Below are positions 15,136 through 63,175 of a stretch of 64,000 nt of DNA, one piece after another (the stretch's first letter is position 1; each line of letters begins with the position of its first letter). The translations under genes were made by a program, and so were the position numbers. The stretch is from Strigamia acuminata (lineage: Eukaryota; Arthropoda; Chilopoda; Geophilomorpha; Linotaeniidae). The stretch is taken from contig OX442314.1 of assembly GCA_949358305.1 (NCBI GenBank), positions 27,761,118 through 27,825,117 of the forward strand. Reading direction: 5' to 3'. The notes beneath the pieces were generated by a model that did no database searches, was not told the DNA's origin, and saw only the letters and a list, made by a program, of their open reading frames with translations.

Positions 15136-15189
15136 CTGAAAGATTTCTTTCTGTTTTAACAAAAGAAATTAACATAAATTAACAATTTT

Positions 15190-16946: not shown

Positions 16947-17299
16947 GTTAGTCTACAGTCAAAGTTATTATACCATAGTAATATTTTTAAAGAAATAATT
17001 AAATATTTATAATTTTTTTCAGTATTTTTAAACCTGAAAATCAAGCATTGACGAAGTACATTAAGGATTACGTCTAAGCGGATAAACCAAATGTCACAGA
17101 ATTAGAAATTGACTGTAAGCATAATAGTCTTTTTGATTTTGTTTGTGTAATAACATATAATTTTAATCCTAGTGGCAATGAAGTGTTCTTATTTATCCCA
17201 GAAGGAAAAAGCATGTCGGCAAAACGAACGGATGGAGCAATTCATTTATAGCAATTCATGTCCTCCTAAAAATGCACCTGCGTGGACAGTTGAATTAAA

Positions 17300-17850
17300 T
17301 CATATAAGTTAGGTTTTGATGTGGTTTTCCTAAATGATTAAAAACAGTTGGCCACATTAATATATTTTCATTCTCCCAACTATGTTTTAAAAAAAATGTA
17401 AAAAAATTTTTCAATTAAAAGAATATTTTCAATTATTTATGACTGATGGTGGTTATTTATTTCACATTTTTTAAAAACATTTTCAAGCCTGAATCAAAAT
17501 TAAAATCTTTTTTTTCACATTTAATGTTGTAAATATGCAGAAAAGGTTAAAAAGTTCACTTAAATTTCTTGGAATGTTTGTGTAAATTTACAGAAATTTT
17601 CTGGAATTCATTAGCAAATGTACTGTAAATCCAATTTAAATTTACTGTAAATATCATGACAAACTTAATTAAACTTGTTGTAAATATGCAGTAAAATCTG
17701 TTTGTAAAGTGTCTGTTTACAAGATGATAAATCCTTGTTAAATTCCGTATTTAACAATCATTGTAAACGCAGTTAAACGTATGTAAAGTTGATGTTTACA
17801 ATATGTTTACAAGAATTTTACAATTTGTAAATATTAATTTTCAAGCAGTG
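17300..17850. other. AT-rich spacer, no gene seen
   Basis: Contains repeated TTTACTGTAAAT and TTACAAGA words between the small gene and the BEL/Pao pol. Nothing else recognised. Confidence 0.3.
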
Positions 17851-17870
17851 TTAGACAGTCAGCAACCCAC

Positions 17871-24133: not shown

Positions 24134-27100
24134 ATGCCCGCTCCTAAAGCTTTGCGCATCCGTTGGATCCGTATCCGTACTCGCCAATTTGTGCGACAAG
24201 AATTGCAAACTTCACTGTCGGGCAAAGATAGTTTGCAATATATAAACAAAGTTGTCGAGAACACTGGAATAGTTCGTGCACTTTGGTTGGTTGGTTGGTT
24301 GGTTTGTTTCGGCATTTGCGGTTATCAAACATGGGAAAGATTACAATTCTACATGTCTGGACCCTACAAAGTTGAAATTGATTTTGTTCCAATTCAAGAA
24401 AGTAGATTCGCTGAAATTAGACTCATGGCGCTTGATACTCCTCTGATGTCGGAGTACTGGGACAAAATACCAGAAGGTAATTCAATTGATGATGTAAAAG
24501 AAAGAATGAGAGCTTGCAGCATCCCAGTGAGAGGAATCATTTCGAAGAAAGTCAAAGTTAAAAATTACACACACTTGTGGGAGCATTCCAATATTTCAGA
24601 AAATATGCAGCACTCTAAGTTGAGACAAGTAAGTAACCTTGGATAAATAAAAGAGCTATATGAAAAAAATTAGACTTTGACCGATACCGGTATCGGTATT
24701 GGCTATCGGCCGATATTTCGGTATTCACCGATATCGGATCCGATATTTTTTGGCCTGGCCGACACCGATATTGCCACGTTACTAAAACGTTTTAGACTAA
24801 ACGATACGTTTTAGAAACGCTTTTGAAGCAGTATAAATTATATACTGTTTCTAAAACATAAAATAAATTAATAAACGCAATTTTAATTTAATTTTTTTTT
24901 ATTTTGGGGGGTGGTGGAGGGGGTCGGACATTTTAATTTTAATATCGGCGCAGGTATCGGTATCGGCCGATATTCGGTTGCCGATTATCGGTATAGGCGA
25001 TACTGCAAAAGATCAATATGGGTCAAAGTCTAAGAAAAATATTGTTGCCAGTATTTTGTTAATTACTACTTTTTCAGGGCAAAACTGTATTACTTGAGAC
25101 CAAGATGAGAAATGGCAATTACACAAACCAAGAGACAACAGTTGAAATAAAATACAAGAATTCTGTTTTCGGCAGTACACTGATTGGGAAAACAGGTAAA
25201 ATTAATATAATCATATTTTCCATTTATTATATAATCTTTTTTGGCTGTATTTTTTTCTTTTTTATTTTTTTTTAGATTTACTACCGGTTCAAAAGAGAAA
25301 ATTGCATATCCTTTTTAAAAAAAATGGAACCTGTGACGTACCAATGGTTGCAGTAAGTTCACTTTGTCAAATTGGGAATTCGTAATATGTGCAATATTCT
25401 TAAGCGCAATTATACCAATCACACTTAAGAATGGTGTTGCATAGTGCAAATATTCGTACCTGTGACGCGTACAAATTACGTAGGCATGCGTTTGCTCAAT
25501 TAGCGGATGCCTAAATCGGCCGAAAATGTCGGCGCCGACTCGAAGTCGCTTTGCTTGCAATGTTGGCACTGACTTCTCCCAATCATGCATTGACCGCTCC
25601 ACACTGCAACGATCCGGGTCTTTCTATTTAATATTCGGAAGGAATAATAAATAATCACCTTTGAGATGCCGTATTGAACTTTGTTACCGCTTGGCCACCC
25701 AGGGTCACCTGCGTCACTGCCACACACCACCTTACAGCCCCAAAGTCATCCCCTTTATGGGTGGACTGACCTAGCCTAGGAGAGGAGGGAGCTGAGTGGT
25801 GTGGTGGAGACTCAAGTGTGAGAGGTGAGAGAGAGAGGTTGGTTTGTCTCTCTGTCTGTGACCGGTCGTGCTAGAGAGAGGTGAGTCTCTCTCCGACTGT
25901 GAGGGAGAGAGGAGCTGTGATCATCGAGGGGACAAGAAGTGTCCCGGGCTATCGTGGACTCTGCACTCCTTGCCATTCACCACAGCAAAGCTCAGTACTA
26001 TGGCGGTCTCCTTAGTGCACCCTCCATGAGTGGCTGCATGGGTCATGAGTGAGTACGACATGAATGTTATGTTTGTCGCGCCCCTACTTCGCTCTTGCAG
26101 ACTCGTGGGTTGATTACTTAATTCGACTAACTCACTACCGCTTTGTTCGAGCGGTTTACCCAAAGAAATGATTACACAGATATAAAAGGTAAAATATAAT
26201 ATAGATTTATTCTGTGGGACAATGTACAGATATATCTTATATATATATATGAAAGGTAAGTAAAAGGTAAATCGGAATGGGTGATGGGAATGGAAAGGTA
26301 AAGGTAAGATGAAAGCTGGCTGGAATCGGCGAGGTCGTCTGTTGTCTCGTTCGTGTTTAAGATGGCGTCCTCGTTGTGGCAACGTGATGTCGTCTTGGGC
26401 CGGCGTGGCAATATGGCGTCCTCGACTCGTCTCTGGCTGGTCCTTCGGGCTCACGCTGGTCAGGCGCGAGTGAATGCTTAGTTAAAAGGCTTACTTCGGT
26501 CTGTTGTCTAGGTTTTTGTGTGGTGTCCGGCGATCACACAGCGGCGGACTCTTCTGGCTCCCGGCGGTCACACAGCGGCGGGAACGCTCGTCGTTGTTTT
26601 ACTGCAGTTTAGGCTTGTGCGACCGTTTGTCTGCACAACTCGCTAAACTGGAGTGGTTTTTACTATTTCTAGCTGGTGTGCTAAAATAGTGTGGTAATCT
26701 TATCTCGCAGGTTACTCTGCGGAGTTTGACACTGACCAAACGTACTCACGGTAAATTGTCCTTTGTCCTTGGTCAATCCCAGTATATTTACTTGGGCCTG
26801 ATCTTGTAGGACGACGGGTTTTACGTGTGTTTCTCGTTTGATGGTTGTGTTGGTTCTGCCCGCTCAGTGCAAGGCACATTCCTTTGCACAAAGCGGGGTT
26901 GACAGGTGACCGGAATCACCCAATGGTGGGGTGGACGAGCCATCCCCACTCCCTCAGGGCAGACGCCTGTCCATTGACTAGATGTCAATGCACTGAGGGA
27001 AGGGAGACGCGCTTGCGGCTCCCCTTACACTCGAAACGAGGTCACGAGAGAAACTCTTCGTTGACCCCGGTCCAGTCGGGTCACAACACTTCCCCCTCCG

Positions 27101-39100: not shown

Positions 39101-42100
39101 CAAACGAAAATAATGAAGGAAAATCTACTACGTATTTCTATTTCATCAGTTTAACTTCTTCACATGGAAATATAAACTGAGAATTTAATCTGTCTATTTT
39201 TAACTTAAATCTTTTAGTTAAATATTTATCTCCAATATTCACTGTTGCAATTCAATCGAATTTAATTGCAACCTAATCTCGGTGGGACCTCCACGTGTGA
39301 GATTAGGTGGTAGTCTTTGAAATCCCTAAAATCTTCAAACGAAAATAATGAAGGAAAATCTACTACGTATTTCTATTTCATCAGTTTAACTTCTTCACAT
39401 GGAAATATAAACTGAGAATTTAATCTGTCTATTTTTAACTTAAATCTTTTAGTTAAATATTTATCTCCAATATTCACTGTTGCAATTCAATCGAATTTAA
39501 TTGCAACCTAATCTCGGTGGGACCTCCACGTGTGACGGTGACGACCACAACTCCCATTTAACAATGGTACCGGGAAGAGATCGCAATAAATAAACAGTGA
39601 ATACAATACGAGATAAATACAAGACAGTTTATTGTTGGCAAACAATATGGATGAGCTAAATTATACATAGGACTAATGCCGACATTTGGCAAGTTAAATC
39701 AGCTATTAAACTATACAAAGAATTGGCCAACTGGCCCTAGAATAATATCACTACGGGTCTGGAATATGGGAGCGGTTTCCCCATCGCTCGACCTGATTAT
39801 AGATGTCATCTTAAGCCGGATGGCTGTGTCCTGGAGTCCGATACGGCTTCGCTGGTTTCCTTGGTTCGCTGTGTAAACTATCGCACGTCGATAAATCGAA
39901 TGATCTGAGCATTGCGGTTGACTTTGTCTGCACCGCCACAACTTTGGGAGGATATTGGTGTAAGTAAATGTATTCATTTACTTATCAATATTCCACTTAT
40001 GAATTATATTTAATTCATATCGTTGTGAATTCTTATTTAGATATTTCGGGAATAAGTTGTCGTCAACTTATCGGTTATATTGAGTTCAATATGAGATTAA
40101 GTCTTCTGACTTGATTTTGGTCCAACTGGTTGTCGAGTTTAAGTTTTGCTGTTATAAATAAAATGAAGATTAAGCTTCCCGTCGCAACACACAATTGCCA
40201 TCGATTAGAATATACGCCTTGCCATGCAGAACGGTATCAAGCGTCCCCGGCGTCGCAGCACGGTCGTCCATCGAGTGGTTGACGGTACCACGTACACAGG
40301 GGTCGATAGCTCGCGGCTCCGCACAGCAGTTTTATCTCTCGCGGTACTAATAATAGACCGACTGCTTTGGCATCGAATACCATGAGAATCAGCTTGCCAA
40401 ACACTTGGTGCTACTCGTGGTTACTGTAAAACAGACTGCTTTGGCACCATCAGGTGAAGGAACCGATTCTCAACAATACCGATGCTACTCGTGGTAACGG
40501 AATACGTTCATACCGAAAAAGACAACTTGGTCCTGTCCGGAGGATACTGAATTGCACAACGGCGGGTTCTCCTTCGGCGTCGCAACCGTAGACTGTAACA
40601 TTTATGCAACATAATAATCCCAGCACTTCGACTTCAATTGCCGGCGGTGGCATGATTCTGTAGAATCATGCAACGGTTCTTTGCGAATAAATCAACAAAG
40701 AACCAAAAGGTTTTTTTACGTGAACAACGAATCATATTTCTTAAGTAACAATACCAAACAGAAAATAATCAAACAGAGCTGCGGAATGGCCGATTGTTTG
40801 GGTTTATATAACCTGACTGGATTTAAGGATTAATCCAGTCATCCAATTGGAACATGGGTTCCACGAATCCCTCCAATCCCGTATCACCGGAAGTGGATAC
40901 GGAGGAGCATTTATGCAAATTATGCTAATCCTTGTTACAACCGGAACTGGATACCCAGGACCGGAAATGGGTTCCACCAATCAGATTGATCGGTTGACCG
41001 ATTGATCGCTAAACATTCTGTCCCGCAGAAATGGAAGTTACATTGTATTTAACAATGTCAGATACTTAATATATATTTATATTAATATTTAACACAATTT
41101 ATTCACTTGATTAAATATACGTTTATATTTAATCATGAGGTTTTCAAGTTCGTATTCGAATTTATCGCTAATTGCGATCGCGCCATCTAGTGGCAATATG
41201 GAGCATTGACAAATGCGGGTTTTAGCAGACGAATCTTCGTAATTATGCCGTGATACTTTAGTATCATGTGGAAATTAGTGTTTATTCTTAATAAACGAAC
41301 ATCTTTGTATTTGAAACATCATAAATGACTTTATTCTAGACATTTATCAGTTTTACACAGAATATTGTAAAAATACCATCATATTGGCGCAACAGCGCTT
41401 TCTTGATAGAAAATAGGCATTTATAGCCATTGTAAACCGTCATACCGCCATGCTTGCCGATGATCACATACGGACCATCTCTCTTGTCGGCCAAGCTGGC
41501 GGTGATTCCTCTCGCTGCATTTGAGAGGGTGTGTGCATCTTTCCACACCAAATCATTGATCTCGAAATTCACGAATTTTCCACCGCTTTTATCTTGTAAA
41601 ATGCGGTCGCGCATGTTAAAAATGTGCGCCATCATATGTTTGTATGTGCTCGAAATTGTTTGCTCCAATTTATACACATACTCATGTGGTTTCTCTGGGT
41701 CCACCACATTTACCGACTCTGCCACTCGCGGGTCCCAAGGCACTCGTAGCTCTCGGGCGAAGTTGAGGTAGGCCGGAGAAAAATCTCTCGTCCTCGAGAC
41801 TGTTGTTCGTATGCTGAACGCGATCTCCCTCAAGTATTCATCCCACCGATTGTGGATGTCAGTGAATATACTTAATGCATATTTGATATCCCTGTTGAGT
41901 CGCTCAACGGGATTTGTTCTGGGGTTGTAGGTCGAAGTATGTGACGCCACAATCCCGAACTTCTCACAAAATTTACCCCAAATTTTCGAGATAAATTGGG
42001 GTCCGTTATCGGATATTATTTTACGTGGAAATCCGTAACGTAACGCCGCGTCGTAGATACATTCAACGATTTTCTCTGCTGAAGGTCTAGCGACGGCGTA

Positions 42101-48100: not shown

Positions 48101-51100
48101 GTTCCTTTGCGACTACCGGCTCGTTTGTTAACGTCTGAGTCGGAGTCCGTTACTCGAGTATTATCTGCCATTTCTTGCTTTGGGTATGATGTAATCACAG
48201 GTTAGAATCAGTTATTCAACTTGATCCCGGACAGGCCCCCACGTGTCGCGCCCCTACTTCGCTCTTGCAGACTCGTGGGTTGATTACTTAATTCGACTAA
48301 CTCACTACCGCTTTGTTCGAGCGGTTTACCCAAAGAAATGATTACACAGATATAAAAGGTAAAATATAATATAGATTTATTCTGTGGGACAATGTACAGA
48401 TATATCTTATATATATATATGAAAGGTAAGTAAAAGGTAAATCGGAATGGGTGATGGGAATGGAAAGGTAAAGGTAAGATGAAAGCTGGCTGGAATCGGC
48501 GAGGTCGTCTGTTGTCTCGTTCGTGTCCAAGATGGCGTCCTCGTTGTGGCAACGTGATGTCGTCTTGGGCCAACGTGGCAATATGGCGTCCTCGACTCGT
48601 CTCTGGCTGGTCCTTCGGGCTCACGCTGGTCAGGCGCGAGTGAATGCTTAGTTAAAAGGCTTACTTCGGTCTGTTGTCTAGGTTTTTGTGTGGTGTCCGG
48701 CGATCACACAGCGGCGGACTCTTCTGGCTCCCGGCGGTCACACAGCGGCGGGAACGCTCGTCGTTGTTTTACTGCAGTTTAGGCTTGTGCGACCGTTTGT
48801 CTGCACAACTCGCTAAACTGGAGTGGTTTTTACTATTTCTAGCTGGTGTGCTAAAATAGTGTGGTAATCTTATCTCGCAGGTTACTCTGCGGAGTTTGAC
48901 ACTGACCAAACGTACTCACGGTAAATTGTCCTTTGTCCTTGGTCAATCCCAGTATATTTACTTGGGCCTGATCTTGTAGGACGACGGGTTTTACGTGTGT
49001 TTCTCGTTTGATGGTTGTGTTGGTTCTGCCCGCTCAGTGCAAGGCACATTCCTTTGCACAAAGCGGGGTTGACAGGTGACCGGAATCACCCAATGGTGGG
49101 GTGGACGAGCCATCCCCACTCCCTCAGGGCAGACGCCTGTCCATTGACTAGATGTCAATGCACTGAGGGAAGGGAGACGCGCTTGCGGCTCCCCTTACAC
49201 TCGAAACGAGGTCACGAGAGAAACTCTTCGTTGACCCCGGTCCAGTCGGGTCACAACATGTTGAACCGACCACATCACCCATGGGGCTCACACCCTGTGT
49301 GTGACGGGTAGGTTACCGGTGCGGTGTGCCTATTGGCATCCCTGCAACGGGTGACAGGATTCCCCATACCCCTTGACAACACATATTAAAGGCCAACAAC
49401 CAATAATAGGGATTCTTTGTCATTTATTCGTGAGTATGCGTCCCACACCAGGATAACCAGTTCCTGAGTTACCTTGGCAAAGGCCATATCAGTCACAATA
49501 CTTACAATGTGCACATGTGCGACGTCGCACAAAACTTGTCGTCGCGGTGTATGCATGCAAACATTATCGTAATGTAAACTATCTCAAACTGAGACTAGCT
49601 GACCCGAAAGTAACATGACACACACACCGCCAGTTAAATTCAAAAGTAACTTTGTTCAACAATAACCCTATTTAAATATCACACTGGTCGGTTCCCATTG
49701 GTTAATTACCACGGAACAGCCCCGATTGGCTGTTTACACTTAAAACGTTTATCGGACGTATTTGTGTACGTCCGCCCGCCCCCTGGCGACACGTTGTCGC
49801 CCGTCAAAACCCGAAAAACTCCACAGTAACATCGCGAGTAAGAATATCGCATGTATGATGGAAGCCCGTCAAATTGTTTTTCCTTCAAGGGGGTGGCATA
49901 TTTCGTTCAATCCTGATCATATAAATTGTTCACACTAACCTGATTTAGCGTGGCTAGCCGAATATATCATGAACAGTTTATGCAACTGGGATTGTATGTA
50001 CAATTGCGGCCATAAAAATTGTTCATTACACTTCCACCGTTTAATACTAGGTATCTCTGAAGGATGGTGTCATGCCCTATCGATACACTTTGCCCGTGCA
50101 GATGGGAATTGAAGCTGAATTTCAATTTATTTTGCGCAAAGTGAGTTAATTGCTTGTTTCTTTAGTTCTTGCAATTTGTTCAGTGATGCAGCAACATTAC
50201 AGATATCTTGTGACAGTTATTATTGTGGATACATTCAACAAAAATAGTGATATAGTATTTCTTTTCTGCAAGTATCAATTTTTACCTTCAAGAAACCCCT
50301 ACTGTGAACCCAGCCTTATAAAGCAAACCCAATGTTATGAAGACTGTGTGTCAAAACAAACTCTAAAAAAATATCCACAATGCAGGTCTGTAAACTTAGT
50401 TCACTGAAACGATTGATAATGCTGATACTGTAGATTGTTTACTTAGATTGCCTTACATGGCTGACAAAAATCTGCCAGACTGCAGTTTAGAAGCAAACAA
50501 ATCAATTGTGCTTAAAGTGTATGACGACTCCTACCATCCCGAAACATCCACGCTGGCAACAATTGAATGTGGTTGCCTAAGACCTTGTCAAACGAGTGTT
50601 TATCACCTAATAGTGCAGACTGATACTTGTTAAGTCAAACAATTTTATTTTTACGCGTAATTATAACAAAATTAATCATCTTTTACTGTTAGATTTTGAA
50701 GATGAACCCAGTAGTAAAGATTTAGTAAGTTTGAATGTTAAAGTGATGGAAGAAACATTTGTCAGAATGACAGAAATCTACATTTACAAAATTTCTAATT
50801 TGGTCATCGATTTTGGCGGTAATCTAGGATTTTCTTTGGGATATTCGCTCCTCTCTATAATCGAAATTGTACAATTTGTTTCGCTTTTGTGCTACAATAA
50901 GTATATTAGACCTGTTCGACTACAAACTCACATTAAAACAAAAGTCATTTATCAAATTAAAATGTCAAATTTGAAGAAAAAGGCAAAGAAGACTTTGACT
51001 CAAACCTCGCCCATGCTACAACACACGTTTTTCATTCTCATTTTGATTTGTGCTTTCTTAGCAGTTTATGTGAGCAAAGAAAGAATTACATTATATCTGA

Positions 51101-54100
51101 GTGAACCAACAAGATATGTGGTAAATATTCAAGAAAATGACACATTATATATGCCCAACATTATTGCATGTATGGACGGACCCTTAACAACACGATACAG
51201 GAACCGATATGCCAAAATTACAGGCATTCCAGAATGCAAAATTCACTTTGTTGATTTAATGAATACAACTATCAACAGAAAAAAGCCATCAATGGAAGAT
51301 GTATGGCGCTATCAAACACCTATAATGGACACTGTTTCCATGGAGACTGCAGCAAGTGTAAGTGTATGGTCTGATGTCCAAAAGTGTAAAAGAACAGTAA
51401 TCGTTGTCTTTATGACATGAAATCCTGGTTCTTAACCTTTGTAGCAGTTGGCAACCCTTGACTTTTGCAGTCTCTGCTCACAGCTGACCAAAGGAAAATA
51501 TTTTTGAACTAAGTTTTTACTGGTGTTACTTAACCACTTCTGAAGTAGCTTTGTACCCCCAGAATATCTATCTTGCACCCCCAGGTGGTTGTGACGATTG
51601 TACTTTTGGCTGAATATACAGTATTAGCTTTTAAAGATAAACCTAACCTACAGAGATAGACTAAAACTGTGTGCTAACAAGGGGAGTGCACCAATATGAC
51701 TCTTCAGTCATGACCAAAATTTTTGAGGAATTTATTTACCTTAAACAGGTCCCCAAATGTTTTTATGCCATAAACAAGCAGAACAAGCATGAACAAGCAG
51801 TTATTTTAATGTTTGTAATTTTATATTTGTTAAAAAAGTAAAATTAATTAAATTAAAATTTTCTGATAAATATAAATATAAATATAAATATAAAATTACA
51901 AACATTAAAATTACTGCTAAAAATAAATAAAAAAATTAAGTAAAAATTTTCACACACATCAGGATTTGAATCTGTGTGGAAAGATACCTAGTCCATTGCT
52001 TTAACCACTGGACCACCACTACAAACTATTGTTGTCTTCATGAAAACAGTCATGTTGGTGAACAAAGTTCTGATGTCATGACATCATTGAATCTCAAATG
52101 ATGAAATGACATCATTGAATATCAAATGATAAAATTCAACCTGGATCTTGGAACTATTTTTTACCTAGCAACAGTTGTTTACAATATTCCTCCACAAGCC
52201 TAATTACTCCCAAAAGTGCACTATCACCATAGAAAGAGTCCGAATTTAATGTTTGATTTATTTCATTCTGCCTGTTCATGGCATAAAAACATTTGGGCAG
52301 CTTATTTACCTGTTTGAGCTAAATAAATTCCTCAAAAATTTTGGTCATGACTCATGACCAAAGAGTCTTATTGGTGCACTCCCCTTGTAAGTGAATAACA
52401 GAATAATACGAACAAACAATGTACAGGTAACGTGATTATGTTTATTATAGAGTACGACTGGGTTCTCGGTTCTGGGCACGTGTAAACAGGCAGCATCGTC
52501 TAGTTGAGGATCTGGACGGGCCAAGGGATAGGGCTGGATTCGCGGCATCGTCACAATAACATTACATGGCCGTATTCGGCCACGTGGCTAAAATGCACAA
52601 AGATGCGGAGAATCCTCTGCATTTACCGAGATTTATAACATCGATTATTCAATTGACGGAATCGTGATTCGAACAATACTAAACTATAAAAATATAACAA
52701 ATAAACGTTAGATATTATTCCATATTAATATTATTAGCGGGGTCAGTCACGATGGTTTTAAGGCCATCGCGGGAGGTTATTACACCCCCATCCGCCACAT
52801 AGTCATAACAACTAAGAGCCATGACGGTCGTAGAATCATGAATGATCCATGGCTGGGAGGATTTATTGTCCGGGTATTCCTTCCCGCATGATAACAGTAT
52901 AACACTTTATAAATACAACAGCAATTCAATTACTCGGGCGAGCTATTGCCGGAACACACAGACTATCCAGTATGCTAGTGCTAGATCAAACTAGTCCTTT
53001 CTACTAAATTCAATCATTTACAGGATAATTGTGCATAAAATGTATTTTCTTAACAGAACATGGGAATAAAAGCAAATGCATCTTGGAGCAAAATAGCTAT
53101 GCACACAGGAACATGCTATCAATCTCGAATAGGTAATTAAAAATTTTTACAAAAATTATAATTGTATAACAATTACTACCGTCTTTCCCCGAATATAACA
53201 CCATGGTGATGTATTCGAATATAACACCACCCTAGTGTTGTATTCGTATACAACACCATGGTGTTGTATTCGTCAAATAACATGTAAGTTTGTAAAAAAA
53301 AATTGTTTCCCAAATTGATTTATAAACATGATAGCCTCTCTCTCATTGGCATCAGCATACACATATGAAACAGGTCGCGAGTTCACTGTAGCTTCCACTT
53401 CGCACAAAGTGTGGTTAGTTCTTCAAAGGTTAACACACGACGCCCCAAAATTTTCTTTAGTGATACTTTAACCGTTCTCACCATCCTCTCCCAAAAACCC
53501 CCCCACCATGCTGCCCGCTCAACAATAAACTTCCACGTGATATGTTGTTGATCGAATGGCCCCCGTCAAGACTCTCAACTCAGCATCGGCCCTCTTAAAC
53601 GTTTTGGCGTTGTCTGAATATATTATTTCTGGTACACAGCGACGAGCAAAAAATCTTCTCAACGCCATCATAAAATCTTCGGTATTCATCGAGGACACTA
53701 ATTTTAAATGAATGGCTCTTGTCACTGCGCAAGTTTTGAGAGCAATATAACACTTGTTTCTGGTACGCTGGTAAAGAGGGCCGGCAAAGTCTATCCCTAC
53801 TATTTGAAAAGGGTCAGCTTTCTTGACTTGATCGATTGGCAAAGGTGCTTCTATTTGTCGCATCAAGCGTCCCTGAACCTTCCTACAAATAAAGCAATTT
53901 CGAATTATCTTTTTCACGTACAATCTCGCACGTGGAACCCAAAAACACGTTTGAACTTCCGCGAGAGTGTCGCCGAGACCCCCGTGAAAAACTCTTCGGT
54001 GTGAATCTAACACGTTCGGTCACTCGCTGTCCCCCTGGTAACACCCACGGTCCTTTGGCTTCTTTCCTAACCTCGCCCCATTCGACTCTCGTTCGCACGT

Positions 54101-57100: not shown

Positions 57101-60100
57101 CGATTTCCTTTCCTCTTGGTTCAATTCTTTGCCATAATTGTTGGCGGCTGCTGTTCGTTCCCTCAACCCGATTTGTTTATTTAAATACGCGAGGAAGGCT
57201 TTGATATCCGTTTTGACGTCATTATCGTGGCGATCTGGGCGGTAATGGCCTGCTGGTTTAACAACATCTGGGCGACAATTGCGTCCTCAAGCTTTTTTGG
57301 TTGGCTGCCGCTGTTGCCTCGTTTGCTTGACCCATCTCGGCTCTTCGTATTTCCTCTGCATGCTGAGTCAAATCCTCCGTTTGATCGATTAATCGTTTTT
57401 GATAAATATCCGCCGTTTCTCGGTCGGCCATGTAAGGTTTAAAGCGATAAATATGGAAACACATTTTGTAAAACTTTGTAAAATTTAATTGAATTAATTG
57501 ATAGCAAGCATGCGCTAACGACAAAACGATGTAACGTGATATACATAACAATGTACAATATAAAAAGGAACAGAATGTAAATAACAGAAATCAGAACTCT
57601 AAATCATATAACGAGATGAATGAAAACATGTTACAAAATTGATGTTAAATGTATGTGAGCGAATCATCGTGGCTACTGAAATAAAAACCACAACTGCAAT
57701 GAAGTTAATCGATTGAAGTTCATCCAAAATACATAACATGCTGGCGACGAGCGTAAACGGATCGAATCCACTGTTTATCGCGGTAACCCTAATGCTTACA
57801 ACATAAAAATTCGAGAGTTTACATAAAGAATTACGTCTGAAATGGGCCATTGGTTATGTCGTTGTGAATGGAGAGACGAATCAAATTTCGAATGAGGAAA
57901 AACGATGGCCACGATTGAACAGACCCGCGACGAACTCAATTCGTCCATGGACTCCAAGCGTAAAAAACTGGACGACATGCTAAAACGTAAGCGCAACGAA
58001 CTCGTCCTGCAAATCCAATTAGAACGGGACCAACTGCTCGCGGAAATCGTGCAAGTTTGCACCGAACAACCGAATGGTGCAACTCGAACGAGCGAATTTA
58101 CTCGTGGCGCTTGAGGAAGGATTCAAAAACGACAACACGAATCGCCTGGCGCAACTGAAGAAGAGTTTGAAACGTAAGCAGGACGTGGACTCGAGCAACG
58201 AGAAGAACTTTGAGAAGTGGTTCACCAAATTGGCCAAAAACAAGAAATCGATTAATTACGTGGATTACTGGCGAGCTAATGTAGACAGACGTCAAACTGA
58301 CGAGATTGAAAACCTCAACATGAACAGATTGCGTGTGCAAATTGCTCTAGATAGCTTAAATTTGTACACGGATATTGTGAATCAATGTCTGACATTGAGA
58401 GGCCAACAAGAGGAAATCAACCTTGTGCACGATGGAGTTCAAGAAAATCTGCTAAATGAACGAGATGACATCGTGGGAGTCAAAGGGATGTTTCAGCATG
58501 ACAAAGAGAAATTATTCGAGCAAATTCGATTCAACTGTTGCGCCCATTACTTCCTTGAAAACAATTTAGGCGACAATATGATTGCAATCCGAGCGGACAA
58601 CTTCGCTGTCAACATGACCTTGTACGGAAAAGGTTTACTCGACAACTCCTGTGTGAATCGCGAGCCGTATTTAGCTCCTGCCAAGCAGCCCGCCATGAAT
58701 CTGGGCCAAGAACAAGAGTTTTCCATGCATGATTGGCAAAAAGTGATTTCAGCCGTCCTTAACAAAGCGTAACTAGAATTGAACCAATCGCCGCAACTGC
58801 TTGGTGTAATAGACTGGTTTTGGAGTCATGCCGCCGAAGACTTGTACTACGAACTAAACGCCACGGAACAGGTGTTTTATAGTCGCATCGGTGAAAAGAA
58901 GGTTGTCGTCAGTCATCTAAAGTTCGAGCACCAAGTCAAAGCTATACAATTCAACATAGAAAACCTGCTCAAAACGATCGCGAAAATTGTGCGACCGCTA
59001 ATTTGTGAGCAAGGTTACACAGTGCTGCAAACGAAACGACCCAACATTGAGTTTTGCATTGCTGGACTTCAAGTGGGTCACAACTCGGATGTTGAGCAGT
59101 TAACGTACTCACTAAATAGCTTGAAGAAAAAACCGCAAGAGACTGAACACATGCTGCATAAATTAATTTGCAACAAATTGGATGTGGTGGGTGACATAAA
59201 AGTGAAGAAAAAATTGATTTGCATCGACCAACGTGCGACCGAGGCAAAACATGTCAGCCAGAGAATCGAATTCGGCGTCGCAACTGCGGTCGACGAACCC
59301 CAGAACCATAGGATCGAAATAGGCGAACGTTTTAGTGAGATAATCGAAATGACCAAACGCACGAGCGTCGAATTGAAGCTCGGCACAAATACGAGCTGTA
59401 CAGGCGTGCGAGCATCGAGCATCCACATCGGGATTGCACAAACAACGAGATCAACGAGCAACGAAGCAACGACAACAACAACAATAACAACAGCAACAAC
59501 AACAGCAACAACAATAACAACAGCAACAACAACAGCAACAACAATAACAACAGCAACAGAAAATGTAAAGGAAATTAGCAAGCTAGATTTCCGGGGAGAT
59601 GTAAGGTTTAAAGCGATAAATATGGAAACACATTTTGTAAAACTTTGTAAAATTTAATTGAATTAATTGATAGCAAGCATGCGCTAACGACAAAACGATG
59701 TAACGTGATATACATAACAATGTACAATATAAAAAGGAACAGAATGTAAATAACAGAAATCAGAACTCTAAATCATATAACGAGATGAATGAAAACATGT
59801 TACAAAATTGATGTTAAATGTATGTGAGCGAATCATCGTGGCTACTGAAATAAAAACCACAACTGCAATGAAGTTAATCGATTGAAGTTCATCCAAAATA
59901 CATAACAGGCCACAGCTTCGTCATCATCGGCGATTAAATTGCTTATTCTTTCGTCTAATCCTGCCAAAATTTCCTTCTTGGCTAGGAGTTGGGCCTTGTG
60001 TCGAGCCAATTTTTTCAAATCGACCGGCACCTCAGCGAGTAGGCCGCCTGTCGCGTTAGTCAGTCGGGTGCACGCCGTTCTCGCGGTCGTGCGATTTTGC

Positions 60101-63100
60101 TTCAACTTGTCTATTTCCGAAATTTCGGCCATTTTACACGCAAAATACATTTAACACTCACGTTTAACACAATTTTTCAGGCCGGTTTAAATTAATGTTT
60201 CCGGGTTTCGGCACCATGTGAAATCCAGTAGCGCAAATGTTGTAAAGTTCTCCTTTTTGGTGAAGTAATGTTTCAGGTTTAAAAAATGTTCGGTTTTTTT
60301 CAGTGTTTGAGTTTTTCAGTGGTTGAATACAATAAATTTCTAGGTGCTCAGCAAGAGCAGCTCTCCTCGTTTAAGGTGAAATGTGTACTACTTTATTCAT
60401 GTTAAGAAACGAAGTTATATGCAAAAAATAATTGGTTGTTCTCAGAAATGTGAACAAAAGACAAAAAAAAAAGTCAAAAACCCTAATACAATACAAACGT
60501 CACCACATCTGGTGAAAATTATAAATTATCAGAAAACATAACAAAGACTCACTTTTTCCCTTCAAAATTTCACAGAAAGCAATTAAATCCCAAAATACCA
60601 TCACCAATTTAATTAAAATCAAATTCATTAAAACCCTAGTTTTCACAAGCATATACACGAACGCTCACGTCCTAAAAACATTATTTTTATTTCATCAGCA
60701 AAAAAAAAATTGGATTATATGGATCGATTTCAGTTTTTTCAAACATCCCAATCCGAAATGTACGGATAAAAATTTGGAATATCCAATCCGATTAAAAAAA
60801 ACGGATTGCTTTGAGGCCATCTGAAACCGATTCAATCCAATCCGAATTCGGTTTGAATCAGATTGCATTCGATCCGACCCCACCCTTAAATAACACTAAC
60901 TTGAATTCACACATTTCTAAACAACCCTGTTTGCACCACTGCACAACACACCTTCAATAAACAAATTTGTTAAATGTGTATGTTTAATATGTAAAATCCA
61001 GTGCACGTTTCGGTAGCGTTTTGGAAGCGTGCACTGTACGTCTTTCATACTTTTCTAAAAATTCGAATATAACACCATGGTGTTATAGCTGAAGTGGTGA
61101 TATATTCGAATTTTTGCTCAATGTTTACAAACTTGCCATTTTGAGCAAAACTCGAATACAACACAATGGTGTTATTTTCGGGGGAAGACGGTAGTGTAAT
61201 GACATTATTTTCTTAGAACCACTAACGTATGCAGGAGTTGCTTCAGCAATATTTTTTAGTTTTCGACCGAACAAAGATCAAATCTGTCAGCAAAATGAGT
61301 ACGAGGTAATGAACACATTCCATTTGTCATCAACTCTTGAATTTTGCACGGGACTCGAATAAATACACAAGTTGCACAATACTTATCCACTGGGCGGACA
61401 AGAATCGCCGTCAAGAGTCATAGTAATTCATCATTTTGATAAATTACTAAAGACATTTGCAGTAAGCACTGAGATGAAATGTACTGTCACGTGCATAGTT
61501 TTCATCCCTTTTCTAATTTATTAGATTTTCTCATTTTATTATTTTTCTAATTTAACCTATTTTTATTTCTATTATTTCTGCAAGTGATCTTTTATAATGT
61601 ATGCGCAGATACTTCTTTGCGCATCACATTATTTTCTGATTCATCTTTAGTTCTGCCCCACCCCTGATCACAATTAACATTACCTGCCAATCATGTGATC
61701 AGAGCTGATTTCTGGGCTAACAGGCATGTAAAATTCACTTTCTGGCTTGATTGTCGACAGAATACATCTCTCTGGAATTTCAGTTAGTTAGTCACTTTTC
61801 TTTTAAACCCTGGCACAACACAGAACCTTGGTTAAAACCCAAGTCATCTGCTAGTGCATTTAAAGGTGGATTTCACAACTGAATAAGCCATTTCTTTGTG
61901 CCTTAAACAAGCGCACTCCATCCAATTTCTAACAGTATCGTGCCTATTTCCCCACTATGTTAAGCCATGCTTACTGATCATTCTCCATCCCTAATGAAGT
62001 TTGAGACCCGAGTCAAACCCTTTCTTTTCGGTTAGTCAACACTAACAAAACACTCAAATCTTGCATGTACAAAATAGTGTTGTAAACTTCAGCGAATTGG
62101 GATTTCTCGACCGCCTGACGTCCTTATTAAATGGCGGCCATCTTTGGGACTACCCACAAACCTGGACCCACGCGCGAACTTCCACTTGCGCGTAGTAAAG
62201 TTATTTAAATCCACCACCAACCGGATTGAACGTGACAGTACTTACACCAGCTTGTATTTTTGTTAATTGTAGGGGTGTTTGATCAGAATTGACTTCATGC
62301 TAAATATCAAGAATACGATAACTGTAGTTTTCTTTCTGTAGGTGTACTTTAAACAAAGCGAAGCAACAATTCCATCAATTCCCTCAATACTAAGAAGCAG
62401 AAGAAGTATTAAAAGAGACACCTTTACCATTCTCACATTCAAAATGTTTAAAGTATGTGTGCAGACAATTATTTAAACAAAACTGCTAAATCAATTGTTT
62501 TAATTTAGACCATTCGATTAAATCTGAAATCTCAACCTTGCCTTGACCATGACAAATACATGAGATGCCAAGATGATTGCTACGAACAAAAGATTTATAA
62601 TATAATTCAGTGCAAGTGAGTATTTCTTTTTCTTTTTATATGTATGTGACATTTAGGGAGTTACTGTACGAGTGCTGTCATCACTTTTCACACTTGTAAA
62701 AATCTGTGTTTTGGACATTAAGAAAACCAACAGATGAAATTTTTAAACTTTACGTGATGTAGTTTGCAATACATGTTATTTAAACATTTTTAGGTTACCA
62801 TTTTTGGTCAACATCAATAAGAATAATTGCACCAACTTTCAAGACATTAAAACTTCATTGGCATCGTTCATAAACAGTTCATTAACTACCGATACAATGA
62901 TTGACTGCGGTTGCCATCCCCCTTGTGAAGAGCCAGTGTTTGACACATTCGTTTTCTTTCAAGACACAAATGCATGGCCACTCAACATTCTCGCTATAAT
63001 TCCAATGAACAACATAATTGAAAAGTTTAAGCAAATATTATCTTACACTGAAGTTGCATTGTGCTGCGACATTGGAAATTGTTTTTCACTAATGCTTGGC

Positions 63101-63175
63101 CTTTCAATTCTTGCAATTCCACAGCTATCGCAAAAAATGTTCTTGCAATTTATGCGACTAACCAGAAAAAACTGA
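24134..63175 (+). CDS. Two-module (tandem) DEG/ENaC channel subunit, 13 exons, 864 aa
   Basis: Exons: 24134-24628, 25078-25195, 25276-25352, 50051-50140, 50273-50385, 50447-50628, 50693-51357, 53057-53132, 61217-61305, 61372-61461, 62342-62452, 62509-62615, 62794-63175. All have GT/AG borders, phases agree, and the total is 2595 nt. Module 1: TM1 near 47-65, Cys-rich ectodomain, CGCLRPC at 339-345, TM2 near 399-425 with filter GYS. Module 2: TM1 near 471-487, HTGTCYQSRI (the CYTFN-like site), SRVIVIHHF (family GIKVxIH-like strand), CLDHDKYMRCQDDC, CGCHPPC at 776-782, and TM2 near 831-850 with filter GLS. Known members of the family carry one module and assemble as trimers at the plasma membrane. 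Here both lie in one chain joined by about 45 residues. The His-Gly motif before TM1 is not evident in either module. The start is the ATG after a possible 5' UTR acceptor; the stop is TGA at 63173. Introns 3 (24.7 kb) and 8 (8.1 kb) are swollen by retrotransposons. Confidence 0.75.
24670..25033. mobile_element. 364-bp MITE in intron 1 of copy B
   Basis: Perfect 13-bp TIRs, TTAGACTTTGACC and GGTCAAAGTCTAA. The interior is dominated by CGGTATCGGCCGATAT-type palindromic words, like some known hAT-type MITEs. GAAAAA borders both ends, and copy A has the empty site at about 6403. Confidence 0.8.
25611..26073. other. Copy-B-only sequence left of the giant retrotransposon
   Basis: Copy A reads straight through at about 6990, whereas copy B has this 463-bp block plus about 55 bp on the other side of the LTR element (49263-49317). 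It is probably an older insertion into which the retrotransposon landed. It contains a GAGAGAGAGG-rich stretch (25800-25915). No gene seen. Confidence 0.45.
26074..27088 (-). repeat. 3' LTR of the giant Ty3 element
   Basis: Runs TGTCGCGCCCC to GGGTCACAACA on the plus strand. Near-identical to 48244-49258; differences seen include TTTAAG/TCCAAG and CCGGCG/CCAACG. Confidence 0.95.
27089..27100 (-). promoter_or_regulatory. Polypurine tract of the giant Ty3 element
   Basis: Minus strand CGGAGGGGGAAG directly abuts the 3' LTR, the expected second-strand primer site. Confidence 0.8.
27125..29890 (-). CDS. Third ORF of the Ty3 element, 921 aa, function unknown
   Basis: It lies downstream of pol, where some retroelements carry env. 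The first ATG (29890) directly follows a pyrimidine-rich stretch ending in CAG, so it looks made for translation from a spliced subgenomic RNA. The upstream extension of the open frame has no ATG. The N-terminal third includes RRCFGEDADPWRLRILHSRC. The middle is basic and serine-rich (YPRKRKRSKGAGNSQSRS), followed by a proline-rich stretch near 430-460 and a more globular C-terminal half (YFIEWAITMMSKLSRAF). No signal peptide, transmembrane segment, zinc finger or polymerase motif is visible, so it is not an obvious envelope protein. It could be a second Gag-like protein, a nucleic-acid-binding factor or a captured host gene. The open frame over 2.7 kb indicates recent constraint or recent insertion. 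Confidence 0.8.
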   Translation of the reverse strand: MALRRTWGPLDPACIARGGIFRGALPEFYRRCFGEDADPWRLRILHSRCIARRWVRDCTLLDTFPEGMREGIATELARDDDPKSPIFHPGLSSQYTGNPAEEHVLYAWQAAETEEAREAIYQQYRQQLVDTATAVAERILQNEGMTADDIHLWFERLRLGESTPQWRPRMGVLTSQAEMWQLHHLGILGPKSSYPRKRKRSKGAGNSQSRSPVTTKKQRVIQNTTEGNEAGPSTSTVRDPSQYSRPRIFVNRQIKDGKECKEVWMSGDEERVSRPSTSRRPLTHREQRRRDRKERYFARCEARGRPIPEPAYISKRAGRRSGSQSGERSVPAADTRDLREILTQMKRTKLTRFDPTMKHARKMGVVTDGMVTPHEVARWLADYINSRPRPDGMPTAIVQPSSSEQHLPAPQVAMTGVQTTETPPPPTQPPPPLPTPTLPTKTQPPPNLPPPSLLNSSDPPDLPTDRSVLLPVGQSILQECRNNLTDIYRPSRPRPGSSALFFERRDEEARLAREAANPTISELSAFRFVMEDPRVSAPALRGVDQTQRYFIEWAITMMSKLSRAFTEDSERSNPVNRRSLQLSLTKVMMQLLTPALFGEGRQSMAAWSAVDREGVQVPRALLAEWSSILPDPVLTRYELTRDVVNPEFEGYKLRSTAFRYTSATWTAAPTQQLRALTVQTEEPAEEVEMMISPTSGVPIPPPMPAKMSPQGPALFEVAGKPKRLLCRTPPVRSVEQTKPTPPGTPPARAATTTQAVIPAATQKPKPAPPPPDYYGRIINEFPHLSMTTATRRFILAQRDKGKSVFIWLHNQIRKTKDLIFHQRLLRAHRAPVTPAEANAIRHTNTGFSAYIPSVWLHERTRAPHEPVDGHALCFITEHEDPRDRSSALVGDLSAPPGTQPPVPGVSYAQVTDSVSGPPKKK
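29891..31333. other. Non-coding spacer between pol and ORF3
   Basis: About 1.4 kb with no sustained minus-strand frame. It contains an AT-rich part (29920-30460), a more GC-rich part (30500-31250) and a T-tract at about 31276-31298. The splice-acceptor-like site for ORF3 (minus TCCATCCTTCCAG) is at 29891. Confidence 0.5.
31334..31779 (-). pseudogene. pol: 3' fragment of Ty3 pol, separated by the nested element
   Basis: Continues the integrase C-terminal region in frame with 41449 and above once the nested insertion is disregarded. It begins with the target duplication, then a YKLRKLEDN stretch typical of an integrase tail, then an acidic, proline-rich tail ending near KDGKVVGKE. The apparent N-terminus that can be read upstream comes from the nested LTR and is not genuine. 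Confidence 0.75.
31780..33691 (-). repeat. 3' LTR of the nested element
   Basis: Plus strand TGTGACGGTG to AACCGTCA. Short open frames inside (for example 31925-32125) recur identically in the other LTR and are not genes. Confidence 0.95.
33692..33706 (-). promoter_or_regulatory. Polypurine tract of the nested element
   Basis: Minus strand ATTAAGGGGGATGTA abuts the 3' LTR. Confidence 0.65.
34289..35770 (-). CDS. Orphan ORF of the nested LTR element, 493 aa
   Basis: The only long ORF of the element; the first ATG is at 35770 (MAQKPLNMIDPK). It is rich in Asn, Gln, Ser and Lys. A motif recurs: YCNRHGLDKTKFKNIIEA near 42-59 and YCKQYQLNSAEFKNINEAQQ near 290, with a weaker third version near 155 (NPAEAQRYV). 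Near the C-terminus two adjacent copies of HVWFS occur. No zinc knuckle, protease or polymerase motif is visible. It may be a divergent Gag-like or RNA-binding protein. No family recognised. Confidence 0.7.
   Translation of the reverse strand: MAQKPLNMIDPKGNNKQTNLNLSSVPLGDQTEKIPDHFTLYCNRHGLDKTKFKNIIEASDYVKARNWRDRTQSQSSHQDPVRNPQTYSRNLVNQDSHTMFQTSSRGSKLEKFKPPNSVDKGEENYKPNNSHPESSLTNQSVVQNKLKLVYNRDQLISVRYANPAEAQRYVASLNLSINLPLSKELGTVNKSFGPPISTQRKDIRTPNKHLQSNNVQQRARSPITNSCLRTYDLSTKKSPQPRQFYLTPISNRKKVKQTFPLKKYYQHDNENDFKPKKESFLTNPREIRYQFEQYCKQYQLNSAEFKNINEAQQFVFRNQYRNQRLKPVPVVNLTEIQQFASGKQPCNIQNNSSQREELRTSKKRFRSPSPAGDEETSSTNQHVQKLTENPGFQSSVPRLRVKYRSPRLLRDFTIPNMGPFHVWFSNEGPIHVWFSRDDLKQKVGSSRSFTLPSQYTVCNCPKEKRRKKSVQQAERSRKFANMRAQYLAKNHVD
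36200..39190 (-). other. Long leader with dispersed short hairpins (nested element)
   Basis: More than 20 short inverted repeats of the form TTTTC-N(2-6)-GAAAA are spread over this stretch, for example near 36228, 36735, 36830, 37069, 37571, 37632, 37674, 37965, 38000, 38533, 38590, 38750 and 39168. Loop sequences vary (CG, CGAA, CAAAT). Nothing coding. It is the 5' untranslated leader between PBS and ORF. Confidence 0.5.
39041..39510. repeat. 235-bp tandem repeats containing extra primer-binding-site copies
   Basis: Two full units (39041-39275, 39276-39510) are followed by the start of a third that abuts the LTR at 39531. Each starts with the same 20 bases as the functional PBS (ATCTCGGTGGGACCTCCACG on the plus strand). 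A diverged copy lies near 38840-38890. Confidence 0.9.
39511..39528 (-). promoter_or_regulatory. Primer binding site, tRNA-Gln type (nested element)
   Basis: Plus-strand ATCTCGGTGGGACCTCCA equals the 3' end (T arm, acceptor strand and CCA) expected of a glutamine tRNA. Two bases (CG) separate it from the LTR. Confidence 0.8.
39531..41442 (-). repeat. 5' LTR of the nested element
   Basis: Same length (1912 bp) as 31780-33691 and apparently identical. The first bases past its outer end are the target duplication inside pol. Confidence 0.95.
41443..45064 (-). pseudogene. pol: Ty3/gypsy Pol (protease-RT-RNase H-integrase), interrupted
   Basis: Starts near MKKKGFNKGF (ATG at 45064). The frame is open further upstream into the end of gag in the -1 phase, so expression by frameshifting is plausible. 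Protease LLDSGADRSF lies near residue 95-105. Reverse transcriptase has YLDDIVIAS near 443. RNase H starts HTDASRVGLGAAL near 586. The integrase HHCC zinc finger spans about 890-935 (HGHPLASHAG to CQRCQACK), and the catalytic Asp, Asp, Glu lie near 960, 1022 and 1056 (VDVMG, ISDNGPQF, NPVERLN). About 1205 residues are genuine. After 41443 the frame runs into the nested LTR and stops at 41336. The rest of the integrase tail is at 31334-31779. This copy can no longer make intact Pol. Confidence 0.9.
45088..48171 (-). CDS. gag: Ty3/gypsy Gag, unusually long (1027 aa)
   Basis: The first ATG is at 48171 (MADNTRVTDSDSD); the frame is open further upstream without an ATG. Residues 1-400 are polar and low complexity. 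About 430-600 is rich in Arg/Glu/Ser dipeptides (RRRERERDERREKERDDRRR), resembling RS/RE proteins. The capsid-type gag domain spans about 620-790 (RWQFYIQNRFDGSWKAG to MSGFRQMPGETIMDYD-like). One CCHC zinc knuckle, CFKCNQPGHYSKEC, lies near 974-987. A short Lys/Ala-rich tail follows. Typical Ty3 Gags are 300-500 residues, so the N-terminal half is an extension. The stop at 45088 is 24 nt before the pol ATG. Confidence 0.88.
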   Translation of the reverse strand: MADNTRVTDSDSDVNKRAGSRKGTDYHLRSGGPLPKASAHESRQKRRKAKPDRRSASEASHPSHAETRQRLDETERSEDPSHPKPPRPNRDGETSGNEVLSRNQSPRLTHDTEVSDPRATSSIQRMASDTTANSALNTPITHSRPASVMSEGHKSNSSSVKRVSSQPYSVSGTLIDAMQLAQAEGVRYTLPTGKITVYETLQIVRAALKAHSVSPQITIVEGAYAQQLVDSAQFEADAENEARQAIRERRRKLAEREAQALEYGRTQPNPTTPEEVEIVDRALRAHRYAFHSQQEAERAFMARLRRDDPKSVRKPEVSSSELSDESLEGDPKRTPKAKPKPQPERATPATPRKRDASAREQQTRPRMQALDSATNNAITRLINANNAKRNEEQALTSQQHDNPQGTEWQQPVPILEDDESSRRQSHDRTFSREEGKRDERPKYYHYGNSDSSSDGLESNAPSHHDSERGSGERRRERERDERREKERDDRRRGRKESNSSRRNPPRRSPSPDPSSDPSSNDDRRKDKSSNRRKRSNSPRDREKRRRSENSDHRREEFQDLPRQSAFTDSTGRQYTMGELGRALLGSLKAEGIDLSKRNDRNRSTGDRVKKKYAVSRRDTMSITGNIRWQFYIQNRFDGSWKAGDRFLDEVIRIKTATKATVGDMLTHGIVELMTGSAREWYQGLKGVNWDDFLMRFDLRYGETPEEVSRKMRGFRQMPGETIMDYDIRARLLFEKAPMEFHATGFNLFFLGGLSEYSQRVLLEERAPTGGSYEEMSAFLFENTIDIEKRYYSALPEAEKAATANRLKLSAERYGGTDKIMRPTEYLSGIMELAEASVGLQIKNKLTFTLPSNPLAAPKKAPTASAMQATLEEVKEGEEAGQDAGKSDEKEEKDDYSTDEEIRSYRDTLSTGCDEEGPLVHLIHRDRAVEEFRARLKPNAGRIPKYFRKNYTPPSKADPEKKKSTEAPRDKSNIRCFKCNQPGHYSKECPRTAKEDAKFDAIMKQMAEIKLAMAKNESKNESAQAAKK
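48224..48241 (-). promoter_or_regulatory. Primer binding site, tRNA-Pro-like (giant Ty3 element)
   Basis: Minus-strand TGGGGGCCTGTCCGGGAT differs at two positions from the complement of a proline tRNA 3' end. Two bases (CG) separate it from the LTR. Confidence 0.7.
48244..49258 (-). repeat. 5' LTR of the giant Ty3 element
   Basis: Pairs with 26074-27088 (about 99.6 percent identical by eye). The promoter is expected here, driving gag and pol on the minus strand. An ATATATATATA stretch is at about 48410-48420. Confidence 0.95.
50693..51357 (+). CDS. Exon 7: fusion exon joining the two DEG/ENaC modules
   Basis: A single uninterrupted exon encodes module 1 TM2 (GGNLGFSLGYSLLSIIEI), a basic cytoplasmic linker, module 2 TM1 (FFILILICAFLAVYVSKE) and the start of ectodomain 2 (YLSEPTRYVVNIQENDTLYM). 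The donor is GTAAGT at 51358. Copy A (8130-8791) has the same exon without a stop, differing by one codon in length. This exon is the main evidence that the two modules are one protein. Confidence 0.8.
51678..52387. mobile_element. 710-bp Harbinger-like MITE, TAA target, with exact empty site in copy A
   Basis: TIRs CAAGGGGAGTGCACCAATA and its complement, flanked by TAA (51675-51677, 52388-52390). Copy A has a single TAA at about 9133-9136, so insertion followed the duplication. The interior shares the tRNA-Ser-like block and flanks (CTATTGTTGTCTTCATGAA) with the 4421-5445 foldback. Two TTTTTGAGGAATTTATT-type subterminal repeats are inverted. Confidence 0.88.
51955..52022 (-). other. tRNA-Ser-like sequence, third copy
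   Basis: Minus-strand version of the 4777-4846 block with a few changes (box B GATTCAAATCC). Probably a SINE-type module carried inside the MITE family. Confidence 0.5.
52391..53056. other. Remainder of intron 7, repeat-derived
   Basis: The first 185 bp is the dispersed repeat also at 9118-9296 and inverted at 4240-4410. The rest (to exon 8) includes a GC-rich, LTR-like stretch at about 52735-52810 (GGAGGTTATTACACCCCCATC). No coding exon seen apart from exon 8 at 53057-53132. Confidence 0.4.
53320..57425 (-). pseudogene. Decayed BEL/Pao gag-pol (minus strand)
   Basis: Read from right to left, pieces in shifting frames give: Gag remainder (57258-57425 and 56891-57166, the latter ending in a CFLCFDKGH zinc-knuckle start), aspartic protease with FFDGGSHRTFI (56399-56890), RT leader and palm (55836-56288, 55465-55812, then YVDDFIDS in 55225-55452), RNase H LFCDASPLAYGVVAYS (54417-55067), and integrase with HRRVFHGG, CFICRKVQG, VGIDFAGPLY and YSDNAKTFKR (53519-54383), continuing to about 53320. 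At least five frameshifts or stops are present, and the 3' end of integrase and the 3' LTR are missing. It is clearly a relative of the pol at 17871-21239, but older. Confidence 0.85.
57431..57738 (+). repeat. 5' LTR, 308 bp
   Basis: Begins TGTAAGGTTTAAAGCG and ends CAAAATACATAACA. Confidence 0.92.
57905..58114 (+). CDS. Short coiled-coil ORF of the 2.5-kb LTR element
   Basis: 69 residues from ATGGCCACG, almost entirely predicted helix (KRKKLDDMLKRKRNELVLQI). It overlaps the next ORF by 41 nt in another frame. It may be the true N-terminus of the larger protein, separated by a one-base change or joined by frameshifting. Confidence 0.5.
   Translation: MATIEQTRDELNSSMDSKRKKLDDMLKRKRNELVLQIQLERDQLLAEIVQVCTEQPNGATRTSEFTRGA
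58074..59657 (+). pseudogene. Orphan ORF of the 2.5-kb LTR element with one in-frame stop
   Basis: Frame open from ATG 58074 to TAA at 58770-58772, then open again to 59655 in the same frame, about 525 codons in all. The first part is charged and helical (LKRKQDVDSSNEKNFEKW), then more globular (MIAIRADNFAVNMTLYGKG). The second part starts near NQSPQLLGVIDWFWSHAAED and ends in a threonine-rich tail encoded by an ACA/ACG repeat, running a few codons into the 3' LTR. No RT, protease, integrase or zinc-knuckle motif. It may be a divergent Gag or a captured gene; the family is unknown. The stop may be decay or a programmed read-through. Confidence 0.55.
59460..59560. repeat. ACA/AAC trinucleotide repeat
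   Basis: Units ACAACAACAATAACAACAGC recur about three times inside the orphan ORF, encoding poly-Thr with Ile and Ala. Confidence 0.85.
59600..59907 (+). repeat. 3' LTR, 308 bp
   Basis: Copy of 57431-57738; preceded by CCGGGGAGA. Confidence 0.92.
59913..60132 (-). pseudogene. gag: BEL/Pao Gag N-terminus, separated by the nested element
   Basis: The ATG at 60132 starts MAEISEIDKLKQNRTTARTA and runs to DDDEAVA, where the 2.5-kb LTR element entered. Gag resumes below 57425. The helical, charged sequence is typical of BEL/Pao Gag N-termini. Confidence 0.7.
60199..60216 (-). promoter_or_regulatory. Primer binding site of the BEL/Pao element, tRNA-Phe type
   Basis: Minus strand TGGTGCCGAAACCCGGAA matches the complement of a phenylalanine tRNA 3' end with one mismatch. 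It marks the inner end of the 5' LTR, which starts at 60217 (plus-strand TGTGAAATCC). Confidence 0.7.
60217..60950 (-). repeat. Putative 5' LTR of the BEL/Pao element (outer end not resolved)
   Basis: Placed by the adjacent primer site. No second LTR copy exists in the window, so the outer boundary is a guess between about 60850 and 61000. AT-rich, no genes. Confidence 0.4.
61462..62341. other. Intron 10 of the tandem DEG/ENaC gene
   Basis: 880 bp between GTAAGC at 61462 and CTGTAG at 62336-62341. No exon-like or transposon structure recognised. Confidence 0.6.
62794..63175 (+). CDS. Exon 13: C-terminal exon of the tandem DEG/ENaC gene
   Basis: The acceptor is TTTTTAG at 62787-62793, completing a split AAG codon. 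It encodes the ectodomain CGCHPPCEEPVFDTF and TM2 CCDIGNCFSLMLGLSILAI, then a short basic tail (MRLTRKN) and TGA. The acidic residue that often follows the filter in TM2 is replaced (LAIPQL). Exon 12 (62509-62615) carries the paired cysteines aligned with module 1 exon 5. Confidence 0.8.

Follow-up and report, generated by a model that had tools for sequence, protein, structure and literature searches.

To our knowledge, the DEG/ENaC channels described so far assemble as trimers in which every subunit has one module, and they carry a sodium-selective, often amiloride-sensitive current. The solved structures closest to the Strigamia acuminata gene described here are those of BRTNaC1 (broad-range thermal receptor 1) and PDPNaC1, both from centipede antennae according to the available portions of PMC12804983 and PMC12714832. 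For both modules of our gene the best solved match is BRTNaC1 (PDB 8ymr; E = 5.9e-16 for the first module, M1, and 2.8e-11 for the second, M2), followed by PDPNaC1 (PDB 9jf7; 9.5e-07 and 1.1e-08, respectively). The BRTNaC1 chain, with 431 residues in the structure, corresponds to about one of these modules; unlike our gene, it has one module per chain, and its 4 entries contain 12 chains, three in each. Heat- or proton-dependent gating is a trait of the BRTNaC1-like channels. PDPNaC1 of Scolopendra also differs from our gene, being described in the accessible part of PMC12714832 as a homotrimer of 421 residues encoded by nine exons. In the spider mite Tetranychus urticae 136 ENaCs have been proposed as chemoreceptors (PMC8269058, PMC7738191, in the portions available), and for the S. 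maritima genome sodium transport is named among the functions enriched in lineage-specific duplicates; in the main text of the latter paper, as far as it was available, the words 'degenerin', 'pickpocket' and 'sodium channel' are absent (PMC4244043). No description of a tandem DEG/ENaC was found in the literature searched, the scope of which excluded preprints, most subscription journals and supplements, and within that literature the statement of a first-pass annotation of this DNA, that it knew of no described channel of this kind, stands.

The window, by which we mean the whole stretch of 64,000 nucleotides analysed (C1:27761118-27825117), belongs to the S. acuminata assembly of 237,517,015 bases in 157 contigs in which all genome searches were carried out. 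An independent rebuild of the gene in this window gave a spliced sequence of 2595 nt in 13 exons, with 864 codons plus a stop (24134-63175, + strand), and GT-AG boundaries at all 12 introns of the splice model. The features are as follows, with the evidence for each in brackets.

24134-24628, + strand: exon 1, with the start codon, M1 TM1 (24266-24322) and the start of the M1 ectodomain (splice model; 37 genome copies at E<=1e-30)
25078-25195, + strand: exon 2, M1 ectodomain, phases as in exon 8 (splice model; match in L051)
25276-25352, + strand: exon 3, M1 ectodomain, phases as in exon 9 (splice model; match in L051)
50051-50140, + strand: exon 4, M1 ectodomain, 90 nt, phases as in exon 10 (splice model; match in L051)
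50273-50385, + strand: exon 5, M1 ectodomain, phases as in exon 12 (splice model; boundary match in L050)
50447-50628, + strand: exon 6, M1 ectodomain with CGCLRPC (splice model; match in L051)
50693-51357, + strand: exon 7, the junction exon, with M1 TM2, linker, M2 TM1 and the start of the M2 ectodomain in one open frame (splice model and family junctions)
50836-50892, + strand: M1 TM2, with the filter GYS at 50839-50847 (within exon 7)
50902-51006, + strand: linker between the modules, 35 residues, net positive (by the linker rule used on 40 junctions)
51016-51072, + strand: M2 TM1 (within exon 7)
53057-53132, + strand: exon 8, M2 ectodomain with GTCYQ (splice model; further genome copies)
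61217-61305, + strand: exon 9, M2 ectodomain (splice model; further genome copies)
61372-61461, + strand: exon 10, M2 ectodomain (splice model; 5 other stop-free copies; no match in L051)
62342-62452, + strand: exon 11, M2 ectodomain, no M1 counterpart (splice model; further genome copies)
62509-62615, + strand: exon 12, M2 ectodomain (splice model; found after 36 of 38 junctions)
62794-63175, + strand: exon 13, M2 ectodomain with CGCHPPC, M2 TM2 (63062-63118, filter GLS at 63098-63106) and stop (splice model; match in L051)

Hydropathy identifies exactly four transmembrane regions (residues ~45-63, 407-425, 467-485 and 828-846), and exon 7 runs in a single frame from M1 TM2 through the linker to M2 TM1. 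The rebuild thus arrived at the same 13 exons and 864 codons as the first-pass annotation, which had also proposed the order of the two modules with filters GYS and GLS and a stop-free exon 7 across their junction; both of these proposals are borne out. The phases computed from the exon lengths are 0,1,0,0,2,1 for introns 1-6, in M1, and 0,1,0,0,0,2 for introns 7-12, in M2. Entry and exit phases are shared between exons 2 and 8, 3 and 9, 4 and 10, and 5 and 12, and exons 4 and 10 are also equal in length; exon 11 lacks a counterpart in M1, while the phase 1 intron 6 is extra in M1 and absent from M2. Three splice boundaries are weaker, namely the acceptors of exon 5 (aag) and exon 10 (acaag) and the donor of exon 6 (gttaag); the paralogue L050 has a matching exon 5 boundary, and the genome search gave 5 other stop-free copies of exon 10, although L051 has no match to this exon. 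A longer exon 5, using the open frame upstream of 50273, was rejected, as the corresponding stretch is only ~60 nt long in L050 and is interrupted by a stop in L038.

Each module consists of TM1, a large cysteine-rich ectodomain and TM2. Searched singly, both modules score above the PF00858 cut-off of 23.6 bits (79.4 bits for M1, 40.6 bits for M2); when searched with the whole chain the same profile matches three stretches. GYS and GLS fit GxS, which we take to be the filter motif of DEG/ENaC TM2. A His-Gly motif before TM1 is common, though not universal, in DEG/ENaC channels; looked for in the translated sequence, it is absent before TM1 of both M1 and M2, and BRTNaC1 has IHG at this point of the alignment. 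Where DEG/ENaC subunits have one module per polypeptide, the window gene has two in one frame. With His-Gly considered a common trait and no condition of membership, the modules are classed, by sequence, as DEG/ENaC-type and the predicted chain is not classed as an ordinary subunit. The two modules share 27% identity over 143 residues, in keeping with the earlier claim that they are unlike. A protein database search with the 864-residue chain returned none of 4089 candidates at E<=0.01, which is no evidence of absence elsewhere. A match of the chain to QueC was weak, below the QueC cut-off, and was set aside. In the junction loci L055-L074 the residue before the Asp of M1 TM2, the degenerin site, is Ile, Val, Ser, Thr, Cys, Ala, Leu or Gly and varies widely between subfamilies.

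The reading of two modules in one chain has to be weighed against that of two adjacent genes misread as one, with separate transcripts, the second starting at a Met in the linker. The linker of the window gene does contain a Met. We therefore compared 40 fetched junctions, a non-random set made up of the 20 best matches of the window-exon search and 20 picked among stop-free rows. All 40 have a linker frame that is open and free of stops, while across the linker the other two frames contain 82 and 93 stops in total and stay open in 6 and 1 of these junctions, respectively. Linkers are 24 to 44 residues long and net positive in every case; their lengths differ between paralogues, with the frame always kept. 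Met is absent from 11 of the 40 and its position varies in the others, which argues against a start codon within the linker. The linker also appears to be under selection, with dN/dS of 0.58, 0.59 and 0.29 in paralogue sets of 8, 9 and 3 loci; the flanking segments are tighter (0.00-0.38), but the linker is still below 1. A single-module array at C4:7.36 Mb served as control: here a stop closes the TM2 exon, and a new Met, that of the following TM1 exon, comes ~570-670 nt on; neither such a stop nor such a spacer is present at the junction. An AlphaFold model of the junction exon alone shows long helices but, with a pLDDT of 73 and a pTM of 0.30, is too poor to count as evidence. Together with the frame that stays open across 300 of 338 junction places, the linker data and the single-module control make two misread genes very improbable, and to the reading from sequence that the window gene encodes a tandem polypeptide, with two modules in one chain, we assign a probability of roughly 0.93.

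The junction places just cited come from genome searches. The junction exon of the window gene as query gave at least 150 scored places, and the union with six more junction queries from other subfamilies gave at least 338 places with a junction exon, of which 300 (the window gene included) span TM2, linker and TM1 without a stop, 21 have a stop and 17 are partial. This tally rests on hand-copied positions and labels, counts near-identical copies (e.g. on C32 and C50), and refers to open frames, not to full gene models; as the best 150 candidates per query were scored, subfamilies may be missing from it. A full gene model was built for the window gene, and the exons of L051, L052 and L053 were read by eye. 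When places are counted irrespective of label, the largest arrays lie at C6:3.7-4.3 Mb (43) and C1:5.3-6.4 Mb (37), followed by C1:7.3-7.8 Mb (20) and C1:27.3-27.9 Mb (20, including the window gene). Within the window subfamily each of the 37 copies of exon 1 (E<=1e-30) precedes a junction exon on the same strand before the next exon 1, and exon 12 follows 36 of 38 junctions before the next gene; the two junctions without it are located at C1:29.24 Mb and, within the window, in a copy upstream of the gene. On the strength of these sequence patterns the window gene probably belongs to a large family of two-module genes composed of M1, a short basic linker and M2. The first-pass annotation missed that the genome contains about 300 such places, this gene among them; a stop or frameshift in exon 7, which it had named as evidence against its reading, is absent here and in the 300 open junction places alike. 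Between exons of the tandem channel gene L052, at ~2.1-2.6 kb on its reverse strand, there is a short tandem repeat without stops in any of the three frames.

A genuine family could nonetheless include a window copy that is silent or dying. Several features point in this direction: intron 3 is 24.7 kb long and contains retroelements, intron 8 is 8.1 kb long and contains a tektin-like insert, the distance from exon 1 to the junction is 26.6 kb here vs at most 4.1 kb in 31 of 37 subfamily copies, and a neighbouring upstream copy lacks exons 8-12. This copy is located as follows.

5878-8752, + strand: upstream copy, from exon 1 (5878-6372) to the junction exon (8204-8752), with DNA 90-93% identical (genome searches)

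Since exons 8-12 were not found in the sequence searched after it (8753-17800), and no M2 TM2 frame is present in the list of open reading frames, the upstream copy looks truncated; ~230 bases in its flank, near 9320-9550, are masked. In the window gene itself none of the 13 exons is damaged, and its splice sites are GT-AG. With its very long introns the gene may be silent, which we consider less likely than not.

The insertions were also inspected in their own right. Intron 3 (25353-50050) holds a nest of LTR-type retroelements, with a Gypsy-like pol (41336-45145, - strand) and gag (45088-48201, - strand); its long direct repeat pairs at 26074/48244 and 31780/39531 are 99% and 100% identical, suggesting recent insertions. 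An open Pao/BEL retroelement frame of 1133 codons (17838-21239) lies between the two tandem channel copies. The tektin-like sequence of intron 8 (58023-59657) consists of two adjacent intron-free frames and is probably a processed copy.

The origin of the two-module arrangement was approached with trees built on the C-terminal domain of the M1 and M2 modules. In a first tree M1 and M2 each formed one group (support 64/88 and 82/93, respectively); in a second tree, from which one mis-extracted row of the first (M1_L049) was left out and to which one M1 and two M2 rows were added, both groups split, at weak deep forks. In neither tree are the M1 and M2 of any one gene paired with each other, from which it appears that the modules were already unlike before the sampled genes parted. 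The common junction exon suggests a single fusion; the trees do not bear this out and, because their deep forks are weak, a single fusion is not demonstrated. Under such a scheme the ancestral neighbours would have been single-module genes in a head-to-tail array; loss of a stop codon and of the spacer to the next start would have joined the last exon of one to the first exon of the other, and the family would have radiated after this fusion.

A natural two-module chain raises a direct question of stoichiometry, because in the DEG/ENaC channels known to us three subunits of one module each assemble. The first-pass annotation put it that a trimeric pore would take its three modules from one and a half chains unless the stoichiometry were new, which is sound as reasoning. 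In the assembly that we propose, the linker would be cytosolic and each chain would act as a covalent dimer of unlike subunits, filling two neighbouring sites of a trimeric cation pore, while the third would be taken by a separate single-module subunit (2+1). A single-module partner is preferred because genes of this kind occur in the genome, including two close to BRTNaC1, and because in Scolopendra BRTNaC1 is reported from numerous antennal neuron groups, whereas the distribution of PDPNaC1 is restricted (PMC12714832, in the part available). The best S. acuminata matches of the BRTNaC1 stretch are the genes at C6:3.525 and 3.527 Mb (43% and 42% identity over the last exon); these adjacent genes, L006 and L023, are single-module, with TM2 exons that end in a stop, and by sequence are likely S. 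acuminata kin of the thermal receptor. Many further matches of the same search, lying in open frames 113-190 residues long, resemble single-module genes. That both modules line the pore is fairly likely; the 2+1 assembly itself is put forward tentatively, at less than even odds.

The alternatives to 2+1 differ in how they use the second module. M2 could lie outside the pore and serve as a tethered regulator or as a part that binds a ligand: in all six genes that were read (the window gene, L051, L052, L053, L010 and L025) the entrance of M2 TM2 is GN or GS instead of the usual GG, and M2 scores lower than M1 against PF00858. M2 is, however, a full module that keeps the GxS filter motif, and we regard a place outside the pore as rather unlikely. 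A new stoichiometry, with a four-module pore formed by two chains, would have the symmetry of two chains of two modules that other two-domain channels possess, but of the nearest solved relatives BRTNaC1 has three chains in each entry and PDPNaC1 is described as a homotrimer, which makes it distinctly unlikely. The chain could also be a polyprotein, later cut in its linker to supply equal amounts of two subunits for an ordinary trimer. The basic linkers in 40 of 40 junctions and their looser constraint relative to the flanks are in line with such a cut; a common cleavage motif is not evident by eye among the 40, the linker is probably cytosolic, and we consider cleavage improbable. Finally, three chains could form two joined trimers, one all M1 and one all M2, both regular and with every module used; by a geometric estimate, linkers of 24-44 residues look short for reaching the far subunits of two neighbouring trimers, and this arrangement too seems to us improbable.

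The size of the family and its arrays suggest that the two-module genes encode sensory, perhaps chemosensory, receptors, a role towards which we lean. A broader picture, in which the ~300 loci would form a geophilomorph sensory superfamily of built-in unlike dimers with a shared BRTNaC1-like co-subunit, comparable to the insect odorant co-receptor, is offered as a rather unlikely extension.

In comparison with known systems, the ENaCs of the spider mite are likewise a lineage-specific expansion of DEG/ENaC genes, but in the available part of PMC8269058 no two-module chains are described, and their number, 136, is exceeded by the ~300 stop-free junction places of this one genome. The two-module family is thus a candidate for one of the principal sets of sensory receptors in a soil centipede, and its new feature with respect to known DEG/ENaC channels is the presence of two modules in one polypeptide. 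A parallel to this design is found in the engineered subunit concatemers of trimeric channels, in which a cytosolic linker connects the tail of one subunit to the head of the next: whereas those are laboratory-made, the family of the window gene would offer channel engineering a concatemer of natural origin, with linker variants in the hundreds.
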